Below, in pieces: positions 154 through 9,169 of a stretch of DNA of 39,555 nucleotides. Both the position numbers and the translations under genes were made by a program. The notes under the pieces were generated by a model. It ran no database searches. It was not told the DNA's origin and saw only the letters and a list, made by a program, of their open reading frames with translations. How positions within the stretch are numbered: position 1 is the stretch's first letter; each line of letters starts with the position of its first letter. The DNA is from Nitrospira sp. CG24E (GTDB taxonomy: Bacteria; Nitrospirota; Nitrospiria; Nitrospirales; Nitrospiraceae), in NCBI GenBank assembly GCA_002869895.2, contig NEWP02000005.1:43921-83475 (forward strand). Direction: 5' to 3'.

Positions 154-717
154 TTAGGCGACTGTGGCACCCTTGGCTTTCCACGCTTGTGCCGCAAACT
201 GTGGATCGAGCGGCGTATGGGCAATGTGATTTGCATAGTTGCTCAAGGTCTTGAGCGCCACGATCGTGAACACATCCAACAGGTGCCGCTGGGTATAGCC
301 CGCTGCCGCAAAACTCTCCAGATCCGCCTCCGGTACCCACCCGCGATGGTGCAGGACGGCCAGCACCAGCGCCCGTAGCGCATTCAGCTTGTGGTCCGAC
401 AACGGTCTTTGCTCCCGCAAGGCTGCGAGCACGTCCTCGGGCATGCGCACCATCTGCGCCACAGCAGAATGGGCCCCCATACAGTAGGCACAGTTGTTGG
501 CGGCGCTGACCGTCAACGTCACCACCTGCTGTTCCACTGGAGAGAGCGCACTCTGCTCAAGAGCCTTGTTGATGGCAGCATAGGCTTGTACCGCCGTCGG
601 GGACTCTGCGAGCACGCCGAATAAATTGGGAAGAAATCCGTACTTCTTCGCGGTCGCTTCGAGCGTCGCACGAGACGCCTCAGGAGCCGTCTCCTTCGTA
701 TGGACCTGAAACTTCAT
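154..717 (-). CDS. AhpD-like carboxymuconolactone decarboxylase-family protein
   Basis: The 187-residue protein carries the AhpD/CMD-family redox signature CAYCMGAH (Cys76, Cys79, His83), with a helical region before it typical of alkylhydroperoxidase-like folds. In AhpD the two cysteines and the histidine reduce disulfide partners or peroxides; whether this paralog does so, and on which substrate, cannot be told from sequence. The start is supported by a strong GGAGGAG ribosome-binding site 5-6 bases upstream. It is likely cytoplasmic, since no signal peptide is seen. The next gene upstream on the same strand (tautomerase-like) ends 37 bases away, so the two are probably cotranscribed. The family is sure, the function is not. 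Confidence 0.88.
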   Translation of the reverse strand: MKFQVHTKETAPEASRATLEATAKKYGFLPNLFGVLAESPTAVQAYAAINKALEQSALSPVEQQVVTLTVSAANNCAYCMGAHSAVAQMVRMPEDVLAALREQRPLSDHKLNALRALVLAVLHHRGWVPEADLESFAAAGYTQRHLLDVFTIVALKTLSNYANHIAHTPLDPQFAAQAWKAKGATVA

Positions 718-754
718 GGTTCTCCTCCTTCTCGTCAGGTTCGATGAATTGCGG

Positions 755-976
755 CTACTTGGCTTGCGCGGCCATCTTCTTCAGCGCTTCGGTCGTGACG
801 GGTGAGCCGCCGACGCCCCATTGCCCAGACGGAACTTCTTCGAGAATGACCCAGGTCACGGGCCTCAATCCTTCTCCTTCAACCGACACGATGGCGTCCG
901 TCACCTTCCGAATCAGTTCGCTCTTCTGCTCCACGCTCAGAAACCCGCTGAGCCCTTTCAATTGTGCGAGTGGCAT
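755..976 (-). CDS. 4-oxalocrotonate tautomerase-like small protein
   Basis: The product is 73 residues beginning Met-Pro-Leu-Ala. In the tautomerase superfamily the initiator Met is removed and the N-terminal proline is the catalytic base, so the start at 976 is preferred over a possible start 36 bases upstream that would bury the proline. A GGAGGTG ribosome-binding site sits just before this ATG. The body (LSVEQKSELIRKVTDAI, then VTWVILEEVPSGQWGVGG) matches the beta-alpha-beta layout of 4-OT subunits, which normally run 60-75 residues and assemble as oligomers. Its substrate is unknown. It lies 37 bases upstream of the AhpD-like gene on the same strand. Confidence 0.85.
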   Translation of the reverse strand: MPLAQLKGLSGFLSVEQKSELIRKVTDAIVSVEGEGLRPVTWVILEEVPSGQWGVGGSPVTTEALKKMAAQAK

Positions 977-1076
977 GTTTTCACCTCCTTTCCTGATGGG
1001 CCGGCATAGCATTTCTCCTTGTCGATCACCCCATCATCTTCTGATAACGCGTAACCGCATCGGTGCTCAGGCTGAC

Positions 1077-1289
1077 CTACACCGCCACGAGCCCCTGCAT
1101 CCGAAGGCCTTTGCGCATGATCAGTTCAACCGCCTCGGCTGAACGCCGTCTGTTTTCTAGAATTGTCGCGTCGACGATATTGCCGCAGAGGATACAGCGA
1201 TAGCCATCTACGCATAGATCGCCGCTCAATCCCTGAGGATCATAGATCCGCTCGCTCACCATCAAGCCATCACACCGTTCGCAACACAT
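1077..1289 (-). CDS. small zinc-ribbon protein, unknown function
   Basis: The 70-residue protein starts MCCERCDGLM and has a second knuckle, CILCGNIVD, about 35 residues later. Two CxxC pairs this far apart are the hallmark of a structural zinc ribbon. The C-terminal third is basic (RRRS, RKGLR). I chose the ATG at 1289 because GAGGTG lies just upstream; an in-frame ATG at 1322 would add 11 residues but has no well-spaced ribosome-binding site. I do not recognise a specific family. Such single-ribbon proteins may bind nucleic acid or act as partner subunits, but nothing here decides that. It is followed on the same strand by the tautomerase-like gene. Confidence 0.65.
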   Translation of the reverse strand: MCCERCDGLMVSERIYDPQGLSGDLCVDGYRCILCGNIVDATILENRRRSAEAVELIMRKGLRMQGLVAV

Positions 1290-1322
1290 GCGCACCTCAT
1301 TGTGAGTGATCTGTGCGTTCAT

Positions 1323-1888: not shown

Positions 1889-2299
1889 TCATTGCAACAG
1901 CCTCTTGAAGAAAGATCCCGCTCCATCCCCGCTCTTTCCTGCCTCAGACAATGCCCCATTAGGGATCACGGATCCGCGGTAGGTTGAGAGCGGTGTACCG
2001 GCACTTTCTACAGCTTTGAGAAGCTGATCGGGGCTGGCACGACCGCGCTCGACTGCCACGATGGCGCCGCCGCGAGGATAACTCACGTCTGCTGCCTTCA
2101 CCCCGGGCACTGCGAGCAAGGCCCGGCGAATGTCCTTTTCACAACTTCGACAGGTCCATCCTTCAATCTTCAGCGTGATCGTTTCAGCAGACTGATCTGT
2201 AGACGCAGCGGTTCCTTGCGACCAGGCAGGTCCAAGGTTGATGGTGCTGAGCGCGATAACGATCACCACCATGTTTGCGCAAAACCTTTTCTTGTTCAT
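1889..2299 (-). CDS. MerP-like secreted heavy-metal-binding (HMA) protein
   Basis: The 136-residue protein has an N-terminal signal peptide (basic MNKKR, hydrophobic core to about residue 22, probable cleavage near AWSQ) followed by one HMA domain with the metal-binding motif GWTCRSC (Cys50, Cys53). In the mercury system MerP is the periplasmic Hg(II) carrier that hands metal to MerT. The usual GMTC Met is replaced by Trp. The protein is longer than a typical 90-residue MerP, because about 35 poorly conserved Gly/Ser-rich residues follow the domain. The ATG at 2299 has a GGAGG site upstream. It is the last gene of the merR-copZ-merT-merP unit, 56 bases after merT. Confidence 0.82.
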   Translation of the reverse strand: MNKKRFCANMVVIVIALSTINLGPAWSQGTAASTDQSAETITLKIEGWTCRSCEKDIRRALLAVPGVKAADVSYPRGGAIVAVERGRASPDQLLKAVESAGTPLSTYRGSVIPNGALSEAGKSGDGAGSFFKRLLQ

Positions 2300-2355
2300 T
2301 GGACGTTCCTCCTTCTTCAAACAGCTTTCTCTATACTCCGGAACAATCGCACCTA

Positions 2356-2802
2356 TCATAACTCCAGCCAATAGGGGGCCATGATCAAGACCAGCGCCAT
2401 CGCTGCGATGACCCACAAGACGACCCGAGCCTTGCGTGGGCCTGATGCAGCAACGCAGGCGATTCCTGGAGCGCATGGGGATTTCGGGTTTCGATACACC
2501 TGGTAGAAGGCAACACCGAGCAACACAACCGTCAGACCGATGAAGTACGGCCGATAGGGCAACAGCGCCTTAAGAGCACCCGCTGTGCCGGCCAGAAAGC
2601 CTGTGGCTCCAACCCCGACGCCCAGCGCCGCAAGCAGCAGCGGGCCCAGGCAACACAGCGAGGCCAGGAACGCCGCCAGAAGGCCACCACTGGTCGTGAC
2701 TGCGGTTGTCGTACTCTCTGAAGACCGAATTCCCGCATCGGATTCGGAATGTTCCATACGTTCCGTATGAGGTGACAGCAGGTCCTCTCCGCCGGTCTTC
2801 AT
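2356..2802 (-). CDS. merT: MerT-type mercuric ion transporter
   Basis: The 148-residue inner-membrane protein has three hydrophobic segments (about 38-62, 68-103, 126-146). The vicinal pair Cys50-Cys51 lies in the first helix (SLCCLGP), and a second pair, Cys110 and Cys116, in the loop before the last helix (CAPGIAC). This Cys-Cys plus six-spaced pair is the MerT pattern for receiving Hg(II) from MerP and releasing it into the cytoplasm. Compared with classical MerT (about 116 residues) there is a polar N-terminal extension of about 35 residues. The start overlaps the stop of the upstream gene (ATGA), and a GAGGAGGG site precedes it, so translation is coupled. Confidence 0.88.
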   Translation of the reverse strand: MKTGGEDLLSPHTERMEHSESDAGIRSSESTTTAVTTSGGLLAAFLASLCCLGPLLLAALGVGVGATGFLAGTAGALKALLPYRPYFIGLTVVLLGVAFYQVYRNPKSPCAPGIACVAASGPRKARVVLWVIAAMALVLIMAPYWLEL

Positions 2803-3284
2803 CGTGATCCCTCCTCTTCTAACAGCGCGCGCTTTTCCGCGTGAGCCACTTCACCCAGGCAACACCGCCCGGACGGGTTCTCCACTGCGCATCGGCAGGT
2901 TTCGGCCTTGACCTCTGCACGAATGCGTGAAGATGCGGTGGAACGCCCTGTCCGTTTAATCTCCTCCTGGATCATCCGTTCGGTAATCCCGAAGCAGTAG
3001 CAGTCCAGAATCGGATCTTCTCTCTCCTTTAAGCCGACCCGGACCCGGATCTGGTCTTTTGTGAATAGGATCCCATCCCGAGCAAAGTACACGACCGGAC
3101 AATCTGGGCTCTCACAAAAACCATAGGGCGCGCCATCCGCACGCTCTCGGAATTCCGGCTTGAGGAGGGCCTCCACCGTAATCCGATCTACCGGCTTGCC
3201 TGTCCCGCCGCACCGTGGACACACCACGCCTTTGGTCTGTTTTTTCGCCGCCGCCGGTAACGCTATGCAACAATCACCCATCAT
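2799..3284 (-). CDS. CopZ N-terminal-domain-like Zn / 2Fe-2S protein in the mer operon
   Basis: The roughly 161-residue cysteine-rich protein has CPRCGGTGKPV near residue 22, CESPDCPVVYFA near 57 and DCYCFGIT near 95. This is the layout of the CopZ N-terminal domain described from Archaeoglobus, which holds a Zn ion and a 2Fe-2S cluster, but the HMA domain of CopZ is absent. An extra C-terminal cysteine cluster (ETCRCAVENPSGRCCLG) is also present. The start is taken at the ATG at 3284 with AAGGGAG upstream; a GTG two codons earlier is possible. By position it should be a cytoplasmic metal/redox partner of MerT, which is an inference. Confidence 0.75.
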   Translation of the reverse strand: MMGDCCIALPAAAKKQTKGVVCPRCGGTGKPVDRITVEALLKPEFRERADGAPYGFCESPDCPVVYFARDGILFTKDQIRVRVGLKEREDPILDCYCFGITERMIQEEIKRTGRSTASSRIRAEVKAETCRCAVENPSGRCCLGEVAHAEKRALLEEEGSR

Positions 3285-3302
3285 TCTCACTCCCTTTTAG
3301 GC

Positions 3303-3764
3303 TTAACGAACACTCCTGCTCGCAATAGAGTCGTTTCTGTTGTCTTTGTTGCTCCTCTTTTCTCTCTTCTCCAAGCTCTGCAAAATCGGACAACGATCCG
3401 TCGGCTGGCCGGCCCGGCAGTCTCGAATCAGGCTCCGCAGCGAGCGGGCGAGCGCTTGCAGATCCCGCACCTTGGTCTCCACCTGCGCAAGTTTGACTTG
3501 CGCTCGTCGTTGTACATCGCCGCAGTGCGCGGTCGAAGTGACGCTGAGCTTGAGCAGTTCAGCGATTTCCTCCAGCGCGAAGCCCAGTGCTTGAGCGTTC
3601 TTGATGAACCGGAGCCGCCGTTCCTCGTCTTCACCGTAAATCCGGTATCCCGACGGTCGGCGCGCCGACGGACCGAGGAGCTTGAGCCGTTCGTAGTAAC
3701 GCACGGTCTGGATGTTGACGCCGACCGCTTTTGCAAGTTGCCCTATCGTCCACTCTTTCATCAT
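3303..3764 (-). CDS. merR: MerR, mercury-responsive transcriptional regulator
   Basis: The 153-residue MerR-family regulator has an N-terminal winged helix (TIGQLAKAVGVNIQTVRYYE, then RRPSGYRIY) and a long dimerisation helix. It has Cys81, Cys116 and Cys125. Their spacing matches the three Hg(II)-ligating cysteines of Tn501 MerR (82, 117, 126) shifted by one residue, including the nine-residue step of the last pair, which argues for mercury rather than copper, zinc or lead. GGAGGTG lies upstream of the MetMet start. It is the first gene of the operon it should control, as in Gram-positive mer operons, rather than divergent as in Tn501. Confidence 0.92.
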   Translation of the reverse strand: MMKEWTIGQLAKAVGVNIQTVRYYERLKLLGPSARRPSGYRIYGEDEERRLRFIKNAQALGFALEEIAELLKLSVTSTAHCGDVQRRAQVKLAQVETKVRDLQALARSLRSLIRDCRAGQPTDRCPILQSLEKREKRSNKDNRNDSIASRSVR

Positions 3765-3781
3765 GACTCACCTCCGATCAG

Positions 3782-3813
3782 ACTCTACACCCTGTACTTG
3801 GGTACCGAGTCAA
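3782..3813 (-). promoter_or_regulatory. mer promoter with MerR operator in the spacer
   Basis: On the minus strand, TTGACT (3813-3808) and TAGAGT (3787-3782) are separated by 20 bases that contain the dyad GTAC-ccaa-GTAC, flanked by CGG and AGG. Tn501's mer operator is the closely similar CCGTACatgaGTACGG with a 19-base spacer. An over-long spacer that MerR untwists on metal binding is the known mechanism; 20 bases is the spacing seen for ZntR-type promoters. Predicted transcription starts about ten bases before merR's ribosome-binding site, so merR, the CopZ-like gene, merT and merP form one autoregulated transcript. Confidence 0.85.
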
Positions 3814-4029: not shown

Positions 4030-5217
4030 ATGCCGACAGATGAGATTTCTCAAAAGGTCAGTGATCGCTATGCGCGGGCTGCGTCGACCGGCGAGCAGAT
4101 GTGCTGTCCGACCAGCTACGACATGGCCCATCTCCAGTCCTTCATACCCGATGAAGTCCTCAAGATCTCGTATGGGTGCGGGACGCCGGCCGGACTCAAA
4201 ACTGTCTCCCCAGGGGAAACGGTGCTGGATATCGGGTCTGGAGGCGGCATCGATTGCTTCGAAGCTTCCCGGCTCGTCGGACCCTCCGGACATGTCATCG
4301 GAATAGACATGACCGACACGATGCTGGATATCGCCAGAAAGAATTCTCCCATCGTTGCATCCAATCTTGGCTATATCTCCTCCAATGTCGAGTTTCGCAA
4401 AGGGATGGCTGACGCGATGCCGGTCGCCGATAACACCATCGATCTGATCATTTCCAACTGCGTGATCAACCTGGCGCCGGATAAACGGGAGGTCTTCGGA
4501 GAAATGTTTCGGGTTGCCAAACCTGGCGGACGATTTACCATCTCCGACATCGTCTCCGACCAGCCTGTTCCGCAGTACTTAGTGCATGACTCTGACAAGT
4601 GGGGCGACTGCCTCTCGGGCGCCCTAACGCTCACCGACTATATCGCTGGGATGATGGGAGCCGGCTTCCTGGGCATTCATCTCATCAAGTCTTCGCCCTG
4701 GCAGGTGATCGACGGCCTTCACTTCTTCTCCGTCACATTGACGGGATATAAACTGCCCTCTGGCCCGCCTCAGTCGGCTCATCGATATGCCACGCTCCGC
4801 GGGCCGTTCAGCCGAGTGGTCGATGAACGAGGCACGACCTATCTCCGAGGCATTCCCCAGCCGGTCACGCCGGAGACTGTATGCCTGTTGAGCCAGGCTC
4901 CGTTTGCTGCTCACTTTATTCTGTCTTCAGACCCTCTGTCGCTGGATCATACAGATAGTCGATGGACCGCCGTCTATCCGGACGATACCCCCTGCCACTG
5001 GCGAGGACATTTCGCTCTGTTCGCCGGACCTTTCGTCGAGGCTGCCGATGACGATCACCACCTCTATCGCCGGGGGGAACCGTTGGAAATCTGTTCGAAG
5101 ACGCTCACCGTATTGGAAACTGAAGGCTACGCCCCACATTTCGCGATCATCAATCGCGCAGGCCGGCAGGTCAGCGGTGACGCAGTCACCTGCTCTCCCG
5201 ATGGGAACTGTTGCTGA
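4030..5217 (+). CDS. arsM: ArsM, arsenite S-adenosylmethionine methyltransferase
   Basis: The 395-residue class I SAM methyltransferase has motif I VLDIGSGGGIDCF (65-77) and GIDMT (91-95). Cys50 (YGCGTP), Cys144 (NCVINL) and Cys194 (GDCLSGA) match the arsenic-coordinating cysteines of ArsM enzymes; Cys25-Cys26 could supply a further thiol. The reaction is methylation of As(III) to mono-, di- and trimethyl species. After the catalytic domain there are two related 46-residue modules, about 253-298 and 329-374, sharing GPF, an acidic stretch, Y-x-RG-x-P and AxHF, then a Cys-Cys C terminus. Read with arsS downstream, it probably supplies dimethylarsinous acid for an arsenosugar route. Confidence 0.9.
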   Translation: MPTDEISQKVSDRYARAASTGEQMCCPTSYDMAHLQSFIPDEVLKISYGCGTPAGLKTVSPGETVLDIGSGGGIDCFEASRLVGPSGHVIGIDMTDTMLDIARKNSPIVASNLGYISSNVEFRKGMADAMPVADNTIDLIISNCVINLAPDKREVFGEMFRVAKPGGRFTISDIVSDQPVPQYLVHDSDKWGDCLSGALTLTDYIAGMMGAGFLGIHLIKSSPWQVIDGLHFFSVTLTGYKLPSGPPQSAHRYATLRGPFSRVVDERGTTYLRGIPQPVTPETVCLLSQAPFAAHFILSSDPLSLDHTDSRWTAVYPDDTPCHWRGHFALFAGPFVEAADDDHHLYRRGEPLEICSKTLTVLETEGYAPHFAIINRAGRQVSGDAVTCSPDGNCC

Positions 5218-5295
5218 TGCTCGGTGACACTGAGTCTCGCAGACGAGCTAGATCTTCCGTTCAGAAACTGCCCTCGGCATTGTGAAAAGGATCCT

Positions 5296-6336
5296 ATGGC
5301 CCTGACCCTGCTGGGACAACAGAACCCCCTTGCCTCCTCAGGAGAGCAATTGAGGTTGCTCGGGAAGACAGCGAGCTGCGCCCCCTTCGAAACACAACTC
5401 GATCACATCGGCCTGCTCCCGCTTCGCGCCACCGGAATCACAATCTTTCAGATCAATGTCGGCAAACTCTGTAACCAGACCTGTCGCCACTGCCATGTCG
5501 ATGCGGGGCCGGATCGGACCGAAAGCATGTCCAGAGAGACGGCGACACAGTGCATCCAGGCTCTCGCGATGACCGTGATACCGACAGTCGATATCACGGG
5601 GGGAGCGCCGGAGCTCAACCCCAACTTTCGGTGGCTGGTCGAACAGAGCCGTGCGCTTGGTCGCCATGTGATGGATCGATGTAACTTGTCTGTGTTGCTC
5701 CTCCCATCCCAATCGGACTTGGCGGAGTTCCTCGCAGAGCACCGTGTGGAAATCGTCGCATCGCTGCCCTACTACCGAGCCGGCCAGACCGACGCACAGA
5801 GAGGTGAAGGAGCCTTTGGAAAATCCGTCGAGGCCCTGCAGCTTCTGAATAAACTCGGATACGGACGTCCCGATAGCGGTCTCGTCTTGAACCTGGTCTG
5901 CAATCCGGTTGGAGCCTTTCTTCCTCCTAAGCAAGAAGCGATTGAGGCACAGTTCCGGAAAGAGCTCCTGACTCGCCATGGCGTCGAGTTCAACCACCTC
6001 TATACGATCACCAACATGCCGATCAGCCGGTTCCTTGAATTTCTCGTGGAGAGCGGCAACTACGAGCAGTATATGGAACGGTTGGCCAACGCCTTCAATC
6101 CCGCTGCCGCGGCAGGCGTCATGTGCCGCTACACGATCTCAGTCAGTTGGGATGGCACCCTCTACGACTGCGACTTCAATCAGATGCTCGATCTGCCGGT
6201 AGACCACGGCGCGCCGGCCCATATCCGAAACTTCGATCCGGCTCAACTCAATCAGCGCCAAATCACGACACGCAACCATTGCTACGGCTGCACCGCCGGA
6301 GCCGGTTCGTCTTGCGGCGGATCCGTGACCGCTTAA
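5296..6336 (+). CDS. arsS: ArsS-type radical SAM protein (arsenosugar biosynthesis)
   Basis: The 346-residue radical SAM enzyme has the cluster motif CNQTCRHC (Cys59, Cys63, Cys66) and a conserved C-terminal tail CYGCTAGAGSSCGG. This is the signature of the radical SAM/Cys-rich family that includes Synechocystis ArsS, which couples a 5'-deoxyadenosyl group to dimethylarsenic. Some members carry selenocysteine in the tail; here all positions are Cys. I prefer the ATG at 5296, since AAAAGGAT lies upstream and the N terminus (LLGQQNPLA) then fits the family. A GTG at 5224 would add 24 residues. It is 78 bases after arsM and 9 bases before the PiT gene. Confidence 0.88.
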   Translation: MALTLLGQQNPLASSGEQLRLLGKTASCAPFETQLDHIGLLPLRATGITIFQINVGKLCNQTCRHCHVDAGPDRTESMSRETATQCIQALAMTVIPTVDITGGAPELNPNFRWLVEQSRALGRHVMDRCNLSVLLLPSQSDLAEFLAEHRVEIVASLPYYRAGQTDAQRGEGAFGKSVEALQLLNKLGYGRPDSGLVLNLVCNPVGAFLPPKQEAIEAQFRKELLTRHGVEFNHLYTITNMPISRFLEFLVESGNYEQYMERLANAFNPAAAAGVMCRYTISVSWDGTLYDCDFNQMLDLPVDHGAPAHIRNFDPAQLNQRQITTRNHCYGCTAGAGSSCGGSVTA

Positions 6337-8848: not shown

Positions 8849-9169
8849 ATGGGATTTGTCATTTCCCCCAAAGAACTAAAAACGAGACTCGATAAGGGTG
8901 ACAGGCTAGTCCTGGTAGATGTGCGTGAAAACTGGGAGTATTCCCTTGCAAAAATAGATGGCTCAGTCCTCATTCCCCTTGGAACACTGCCTCAATCGCT
9001 TGCTCAATTGAATCGTGACTCGGAGATCATCGCCATCTGCCACCATGGCATGAGAAGCGCTGACGCAACAAACTTTCTCCTTCAGCAGGGGTTCCAAAAT
9101 GTAAAGAACTTAGTGGGGGGAATCGATGCGTGGTCGACTCAGGTCGATGGGGCAGTTCCACGATACTAA
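8849..9169 (+). CDS. single-domain rhodanese-like sulfurtransferase
   Basis: The 106-residue protein has the rhodanese fold markers VLVDVRENWEYSLAKIDGSVLIPLG and the active-site loop CHHGMRS. In this loop Cys would carry a persulfide when moving sulfur from donors such as thiosulfate. HHGMRS loops are common in GlpE- and MoeB-associated rhodaneses. No signal peptide is seen, so it is likely cytoplasmic. It is an apparently single-gene unit behind its own strong promoter. The actual sulfur donor and acceptor are unknown. Confidence 0.9.
   Translation: MGFVISPKELKTRLDKGDRLVLVDVRENWEYSLAKIDGSVLIPLGTLPQSLAQLNRDSEIIAICHHGMRSADATNFLLQQGFQNVKNLVGGIDAWSTQVDGAVPRY

Follow-up and report, generated by a model that had tools for sequence, protein, structure and literature searches.

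A mercury-type operon without merA encodes a CopZ-like candidate Hg(II) acceptor in Nitrospira sp. CG24E

The 39,555 nucleotides of Nitrospira sp. CG24E analyzed here (contig NEWP02000005.1, positions 43,921 to 83,475; hereafter, the window) carry on the minus strand, from 3764 to 1889, four open reading frames (ORFs) in the order merR-copZ-merT-merP, placed as in the original prediction, which had been made from the letters alone. Since the gaps are short (12 bases between merR and copZ, 56 between merT and merP) and the copZ stop overlaps the merT start as ATGA, we treat the four genes as one compact operon. Each ORF is intact, as are the operator and the ATGA overlap. We propose that this is an Hg(II)-inducible import operon working without the mercuric reductase MerA, and that the product of copZ (CopZ-N) would serve here as a cytosolic thiol acceptor of Hg(II), both chaperone and sink. 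We put the probability of this reading at about one half.

Regulator, operator, and transport genes

The regulator has the cysteines C81, C116, and C125 on the Hg-ligand columns, with the C-x8-C spacing, so that the three Hg ligands first read from the sequence are borne out. Its best match in the PDB is the MerR of Tn501 (5CRL, E 8.9e-25). The MerR model TIGR02051 was the top NCBIfam model with 128.5 bits, which is under its cut-off of 150.85, and a model for Zn(II) regulators came next, 3 bits behind (125.5 bits). Because of this score, the assignment to mercury relies on the ligand spacing, on the operator, and on the MerRs 68 to 86% identical to this one that head mer clusters in relatives of the family, most of them with MerA. 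The operator has the Tn501-like core that had been claimed for it: GTAC-N4-GTAC occurs once in the window, where 0.08 occurrences are expected, and the 28-base pattern is found once in the whole assembled genome, even with up to 3 mismatches allowed. The operators of the CopZ-bearing mer clusters of the family are nearly the same.

The merT product matches PF02411 with 84.8 bits (gathering score 32.9) and shows, by eye, a Cys pair in the first hydrophobic stretch and a C-x5-C loop. The last protein has an HMA domain (38.3 bits; cut-off 24.8) and a signal-peptide-like start (by eye), and it reaches 38 of the 92.55 bits that the MerP model TIGR02052 asks for. We therefore call it MerP-like, since it is a MerP by context only; the earlier labels of MerT and MerP-like stand, and a plain MerP does not. 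As in the classical mer operons of the Tn501/Tn21 type, the window has MerR, a GTAC-N4-GTAC operator, MerT, and a MerP-like protein. It differs from them in that merR is the first gene of the operon and points the same way as the rest, copZ is inserted, and merA is missing.

The CopZ-like protein

CopZ-N matches NCBIfam NF047645 (CopZ_Nterm_CC) with 137.3 bits (cut-off 100) over residues 4 to 148 of 163, hence nearly at full length. This family is described as a "putative iron-sulfur cluster-binding metallochaperone," with no mercury role in the description, whereas the gene of the window lies in a mer operon. The zinc domain of CopZ in Pfam, PF18423, is matched with 75.9 bits (cut-off 28.4); the 2Fe-2S model Fer2_BFD gives 17 bits, under its cut-off of 26. 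A profile match relates the sequence to 2HU9, the N-terminal domain of Archaeoglobus fulgidus CopZ (E 4.7e-25), and the AlphaFold model (pLDDT 80) leads to the same structure in Foldseek (E 6e-9, TMt 0.75). Numbered from the GTG at 3290 (the true start is likely the ATG at 3284 or at 3281), the cysteines comprise a Cys7-Cys8 pair, the Zn-type Cys24, Cys27, Cys59, and Cys64, the 2Fe-2S-type Cys97, Cys99, Cys134, and Cys143-Cys144, and an extra Cys132. In an alignment of 12 sequences, C24, C59, C64, C97, C99, C134, C143, and C144 show no variation and C7, C8, C27, and C132 almost none, and these conserved columns predict a Zn site and a [2Fe-2S] site. The Zn/2Fe-2S layout with extra cysteines that had been proposed is thus upheld by the family, the zinc domain, the fold, and the additional Cys7-Cys8 and Cys132; Fer2_BFD does not add to it.

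The window protein agrees with 2HU9 in its fold and in the cysteine columns of the Zn and 2Fe-2S types, which contain the metal ligands of 2HU9. To these, the window protein adds the N-terminal Cys-Cys pair, which sits on a tail forming the low-confidence part of the model, and Cys132. It has no fused HMA domain, which the A. fulgidus protein has, and its neighbors are mer genes, not copper genes. The molecule of 2HU9 is labeled "Mercuric transport protein periplasmic component" in the PDB and reportedly reduces Cu(II).

Among the 88 of 95 collected rows in which the first Zn-type Cys is aligned, the N-terminal CC is more common in mer-linked members (56 of 66) than in the others (12 of 22; Fisher P = 0.007, kinship ignored), which makes the pair an only suggestive marker of mer context. 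In a quick tree built from 88 of the 95 rows, without 7 that were short, cut, or duplicate-like, MerA state changed 8 times and mer context 10 times; many of its forks are weak, and we give it no weight.

Shorter relatives of the protein were also seen. Seven Nitrospirota loci (L167 to L173) encode homologs of the 2Fe-2S half only, and all seven have an in-frame TGA at the position of Cys143 of the window, in the context GR-U-C or GK-U-C; they are likely selenoproteins. Marine gammaproteobacterial proteins of 74 to 79 amino acids (L083 to L086) have the 2Fe-2S half immediately after an N-terminal CC, and one of their genes (L084) adjoins merR-merT-merP.

Search for MerA and MerB in the genome

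The MerA model TIGR02053 found no protein over its cut-off of 454 bits in the window or in the assembled genome (3.45 Mb, 98.24% complete, 99 contigs), as had been predicted for this stretch. It gave 13 matches in the genome, the best with 356 bits, and the C-terminal Cys pair was absent from all the long MerA-like paralogs. Matches of this loose kind also turn up in each of the 14 control genomes, and these paralogs should therefore be regarded as ordinary lipoamide dehydrogenase relatives until shown otherwise. Had a merA been controlled by the same operator somewhere else in the genome, this would have spoken against the original prediction; such a gene was looked for genome-wide and not found, and the fetched flanks of the MerA paralogs hold no GTAC-N4-GTAC core. 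On the contig of the operon, MerA is absent from about 45 kb downstream and about 36 kb upstream. Two of the MerA-like genes (L005 and L007, contig C78) are neighbors, one with an apparent internal deletion, and lie beside a gene for a TVP38-like membrane protein.

A merA pseudogene hidden beside merP was considered and set aside, since tblastn with the MerA of a relative gave no pseudogene or remnant in the window. The MerB, MerF, and Grx of a relative found nothing in the window either, the match of MerF falling on merT itself. The MerB search of the genome gave no match; it gave none in the control genomes either and so proves little.

Mercury operons in the family

Among 175 genomes of the same family, the CopZ gene was found in 10, MerT in 40, and MerA over the cut-off in 17. 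Co-occurrence of copZ with merT had been proposed as a check; here, the CopZ gene lies inside a mer cluster in all 10 genomes that carry it. MerA over the cut-off is present in 8 of these 10 (17 of 175 overall); the other two are the genome studied here and G036, in which the contig breaks off within merT. MerA lies in the same cluster as copZ in six fetched relatives; in the relatives G047 and G055, the two lie about 12 and 15 kb apart. The full form in the family is merR-grx-merF-copZ-merB:merT fusion-merP-(cupredoxin)-merA, with some genomes lacking one or another part, and is often divergent from arsM-arsR-arsS. The long operon of Nitrospira moscoviensis (L069/L027, with merA 15 kb on) has the same regulator, operator, CopZ, MerT, MerP, and arsM neighborhood as the window; of the parts of the long family operon, grx, merF, the MerB domain, and merA are missing from the window. 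Since 8 of the 10 CopZ-bearing genomes have MerA, CopZ-N would normally act alongside MerA, and the window operon looks reduced. Moreover, for each of the four window genes the best scores are those against family operons with CopZ, most of which also have MerA (a ranking of scores, not a tree), which suggests that the window carries the long operon in reduced form.

MerT is often found without MerA in the family: of 40 genomes with MerT, 15 have MerA over the cut-off and 25 do not. Two of the latter are incomplete at this point, G152 having a piece of MerA at a contig end and G036 being cut. We fetched one merT cluster from each of 15 of these 25 genomes; MerA was absent from the stretch in 14 of them, and several adjoin arsM. 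Mer transport genes without MerA are therefore common in the family, and the window differs from those clusters in also having copZ. A cut-off alone overstates the absence of MerA, because G152 and G346 have adjacent pieces of MerA and G763 an interrupted MerA; we counted all three as having it. The MerA-free merR-merT-merP cluster beside arsM in G134, of the same genus, shares with the window the absence of MerA and the flanking genes, and differs in having no copZ and a clearly more distant MerP.

Two features of other Nitrospira clusters were recorded. A MerB-like and a MerT domain stand in one open frame of 395 to 447 amino acids in L022 (1939-3282), L023 (10025-11281), L027 (10075-11373), and L186 (6133-7320), the last with no MerA nearby. 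In L178, L180, L182, L183, and L187, merR-merT-merP lies beside arsM without merA and without copZ.

CopZ genes outside the family

We considered whether copZ was peculiar to the window and rejected it, since the gene is patchy in the family yet widespread elsewhere. In a sample of 398 Pseudomonadota genomes, 43 had the CopZ gene (47 matches), and mer genes lay within the flanks of 20 of the 30 loci fetched from these matches. A sample of 395 Nitrospirota genomes, members of the family included, gave a match in 53 (21 over the cut-off); outside the family, 12 of the 16 annotated loci (L151 to L166) have mer genes. These make 31 mer-linked loci outside the family (19 in Pseudomonadota, a duplicate of L079 removed, and 12 in Nitrospirota), for which MerA was over the cut-off in 5 genomes, present in pieces in 2 (G346 and G763), and not found in 24. 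With the non-mer loci included, MerA was over the cut-off in 7 of the 58 genomes searched. It was so in 2 of the 16 Nitrospirota genomes searched, all at least 88% complete, and in 3 of 12 further genomes reached through related loci; in Pseudomonadota its absence is soft because completeness figures are not given.

The arrangement merR-merT-merP-copZ recurs in genomes with no MerA over the cut-off, namely in Dechloromonas and Zoogloea (L078 and L079, the same cassette with an identical protein) and in L080. In L077, merT-HMA precedes copZ, and the same contig has MerA about 14 kb further on. The looser form MerR-(MerT/MerF)-(MerP)-CopZ, again with no MerA over the cut-off, was found in other Nitrospirota, in Pseudomonadota, and in a metagenome-assembled genome of Vicinamibacteria, which belong to the Acidobacteria. 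Altogether, 57 distinct MerR-like ORFs adjoin CopZ genes; 41 of them have a C-x(5-10)-C-[PSA]-[IVL] tail, and the exact GTAC-N4-GTAC core accompanies 10 of the 57, including Bacillales plasmids with MerR-CopZ alone. The original prediction had CopZ-N acting in place of or alongside MerA. The family counts support "alongside," and this MerA-free recurrence makes "in place of" plausible only.

The CopZ gene was matched in 29 plasmid records, all of which were viewed (three pairs and one triple are nearly identical), and a MerR-like ORF adjoins it in 19; in two further records, from Halorussus, MerA and MerB are near it. Plasmids of Peribacillus, Cohnella, and Cytobacillus and one labeled Stenotrophomonas carry merR-copZ with the GTAC-N4-GTAC core, and the stretches around these pairs have no other mer genes. 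When 14 whole MerR-CopZ plasmids, not the chromosomes, were searched, MerA over the cut-off was found in one, elsewhere on a Peribacillus plasmid. Deinococcus plasmids have MerR-copZ, followed by merB in two cases (L092 and L097, with MerR-like, CopZ-N, and merB genes in a row and no plasmid MerA over the cut-off). On a Planctomycetes K2D plasmid (L090, 4983-6218), a protein annotated as mercuric reductase starts with a CopZ-N domain.

Proposed role of CopZ-N and alternatives

Hg(II) converts MerR to an activator. MerR, on Hg(II), would thus switch on the operon, and MerT with the MerP-like protein would bring the ion into the cell. CopZ-N, translated next to MerT, would meet Hg(II) in the cytosol, where the Cys-Cys pair on its flexible N-terminal tail would take the ion from MerT or from small thiols and the Zn/[2Fe-2S] domain beside the tail would offer further thiols. 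MerA has a mobile Cys pair, which Cys7-Cys8 on the mobile tail may be said to resemble. In the relatives, CopZ-N would act ahead of MerA or next to it and feed it Hg(II), MerA often having an HMA domain of its own; in the window operon, with MerA gone, it would hold Hg(II) or pass it to cellular thiols or another reductase. We infer that CopZ-N would bind Hg(II), that the N-terminal pair would be the site, that transfer would run in this direction, and that the operon would confer resistance.

Several observations weigh against this role. Ten mer-linked members lack the CC pair; 10 of the 30 Pseudomonadota loci have no mer neighbors, 8 of these also lacking the pair, and several of the non-mer loci viewed there are linked to an NhaA-like gene, a group in which both mer genes and the CC pair are absent. 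The exact operator core was not seen in 47 of the 57 MerR-linked cases, and the MerRs beside the CopZ gene in Deinococcus (plasmids included) and cyanobacteria lack the classical Hg-ligand spacing. On plasmids, the CopZ gene follows ArsR and a metal P-type ATPase gene in two cases and YnfA in two others. As the gene mostly travels with MerA in the family, acting without MerA in this operon may be a side effect of loss, and for any CopZ-N protein Hg(II) binding is a prediction.

Loss is the core of one alternative, that the operon is a decaying remnant of the full form, stripped of grx, merF, the MerB domain, and merA and now of no selected use, or even harmful. The family operons to which its genes score best hold the missing genes in the same place, and no remnant of merA was found in the window, both of which fit decay; still, every ORF, the operator, and the ATGA overlap have stayed intact, family genomes commonly have MerR-MerT-MerP with no MerA nearby, and CopZ without MerA is widespread, so that we regard decay as unlikely. 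A true MerA missing from the assembly, for instance on a plasmid, is less probable again. The enzyme need not be adjacent, as G047 and G055 show, and contig ends can hide it (G152, G346), but the long MerA-free flanks and the single operator of the assembled genome argue against it. Equally slim is the chance that Hg(II) is reduced by chromosomal MerA-like FAD oxidoreductases without the C-terminal CC, with CopZ-N as thiol donor. The genome does have several such proteins, and there is a precedent in cyanobacteria: Hg induces Slr1849 of Synechocystis under a MerR that is not linked to it, according to PMC6741143, and the cyanobacterial MerA-like enzyme works with, and depends on, glutaredoxin, as cited in section 11 of PMC8261052. 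Against this, the model that finds these proteins is loose enough to match every control genome, and their fetched flanks lack the operator core.

Finally, the operon could answer another soft metal (Cu, Zn, or Cd), with CopZ-N as a copper chaperone as in Archaeoglobus. The founding member of the family bears the name CopZ, the Zn(II) regulator model nearly equals the MerR model on this regulator, and two plasmid members follow a P-type ATPase; the regulator ligands, the operator, and MerT nevertheless match Hg systems, and close MerRs head mer clusters, which makes another metal the least probable of these alternatives, and very improbable. A broader reading goes beyond this operon. CopZ-N with the CC could be a general factor for MerA-independent detoxification of Hg(II), its N-terminal pair capturing Hg(II) that is imported or released by MerB and its [2Fe-2S] cluster reducing the ion or holding it as a stable thiolate complex, a generalization that we consider doubtful. 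If it were true, many genomes that import Hg(II) or set it free but have no MerA would have CopZ-N as their missing partner.

According to Christakis et al. (2021; PMC8261052), 906 genomes have MerB and no MerA, and these cells must have evolved other ways to handle the Hg(II) released; the authors treat this as an unsolved problem, other routes are listed there, and the term "CopZ" is absent from the main text. CopZ-N is a specific candidate for this task, being found in several phyla behind an Hg-type MerR, whether MerT and MerB are there or not, and being on some plasmids the only other mer-linked gene. As far as searched, the family is known and its recurrent mercury setting unreported: titles and the starts of abstracts gave nothing on CopZ-N genes in mer operons, a weak negative, since most subscription journals lay outside the search.

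Genomic setting

The operon and its neighbors are listed in Table 1. The order of the downstream genes matches that of the region downstream of merR-merT-merP in G134 (L178).

Table 1. Features of the mer operon and its flanks in the window
Feature	Position	Strand
merR, Hg(II)-type MerR regulator with Cys81, Cys116, Cys125 (C-x8-C-P-I)	3303..3764	-
mer-type operator/promoter TTGACTCGGTACCCAAGTACAGGGTGTA, upstream of merR; GTAC-N4-GTAC core 3794-3805	3786..3813	-
copZ-like gene (NF047645 CopZ_Nterm_CC); stop overlaps merT start (ATGA)	2799..3290	-
merT, inner-membrane Hg(II) transporter family	2356..2802	-
merP-like, HMA domain with C-x-x-C (GWTCRSC)	1889..2299	-
arsM-type arsenite methyltransferase, divergent; adjoins merR in relatives too	4030..5217	+
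arsS, arsenosugar biosynthesis radical SAM protein (TIGR04167 449 bits, cut-off 300)	5224..6336	+
Downstream flank: CMD-domain protein, tautomerase, small Cys-rich ORF	154..1322	-

Further along the window, the ORF at 8849-9169 encodes a small protein that is rhodanese-like by eye.

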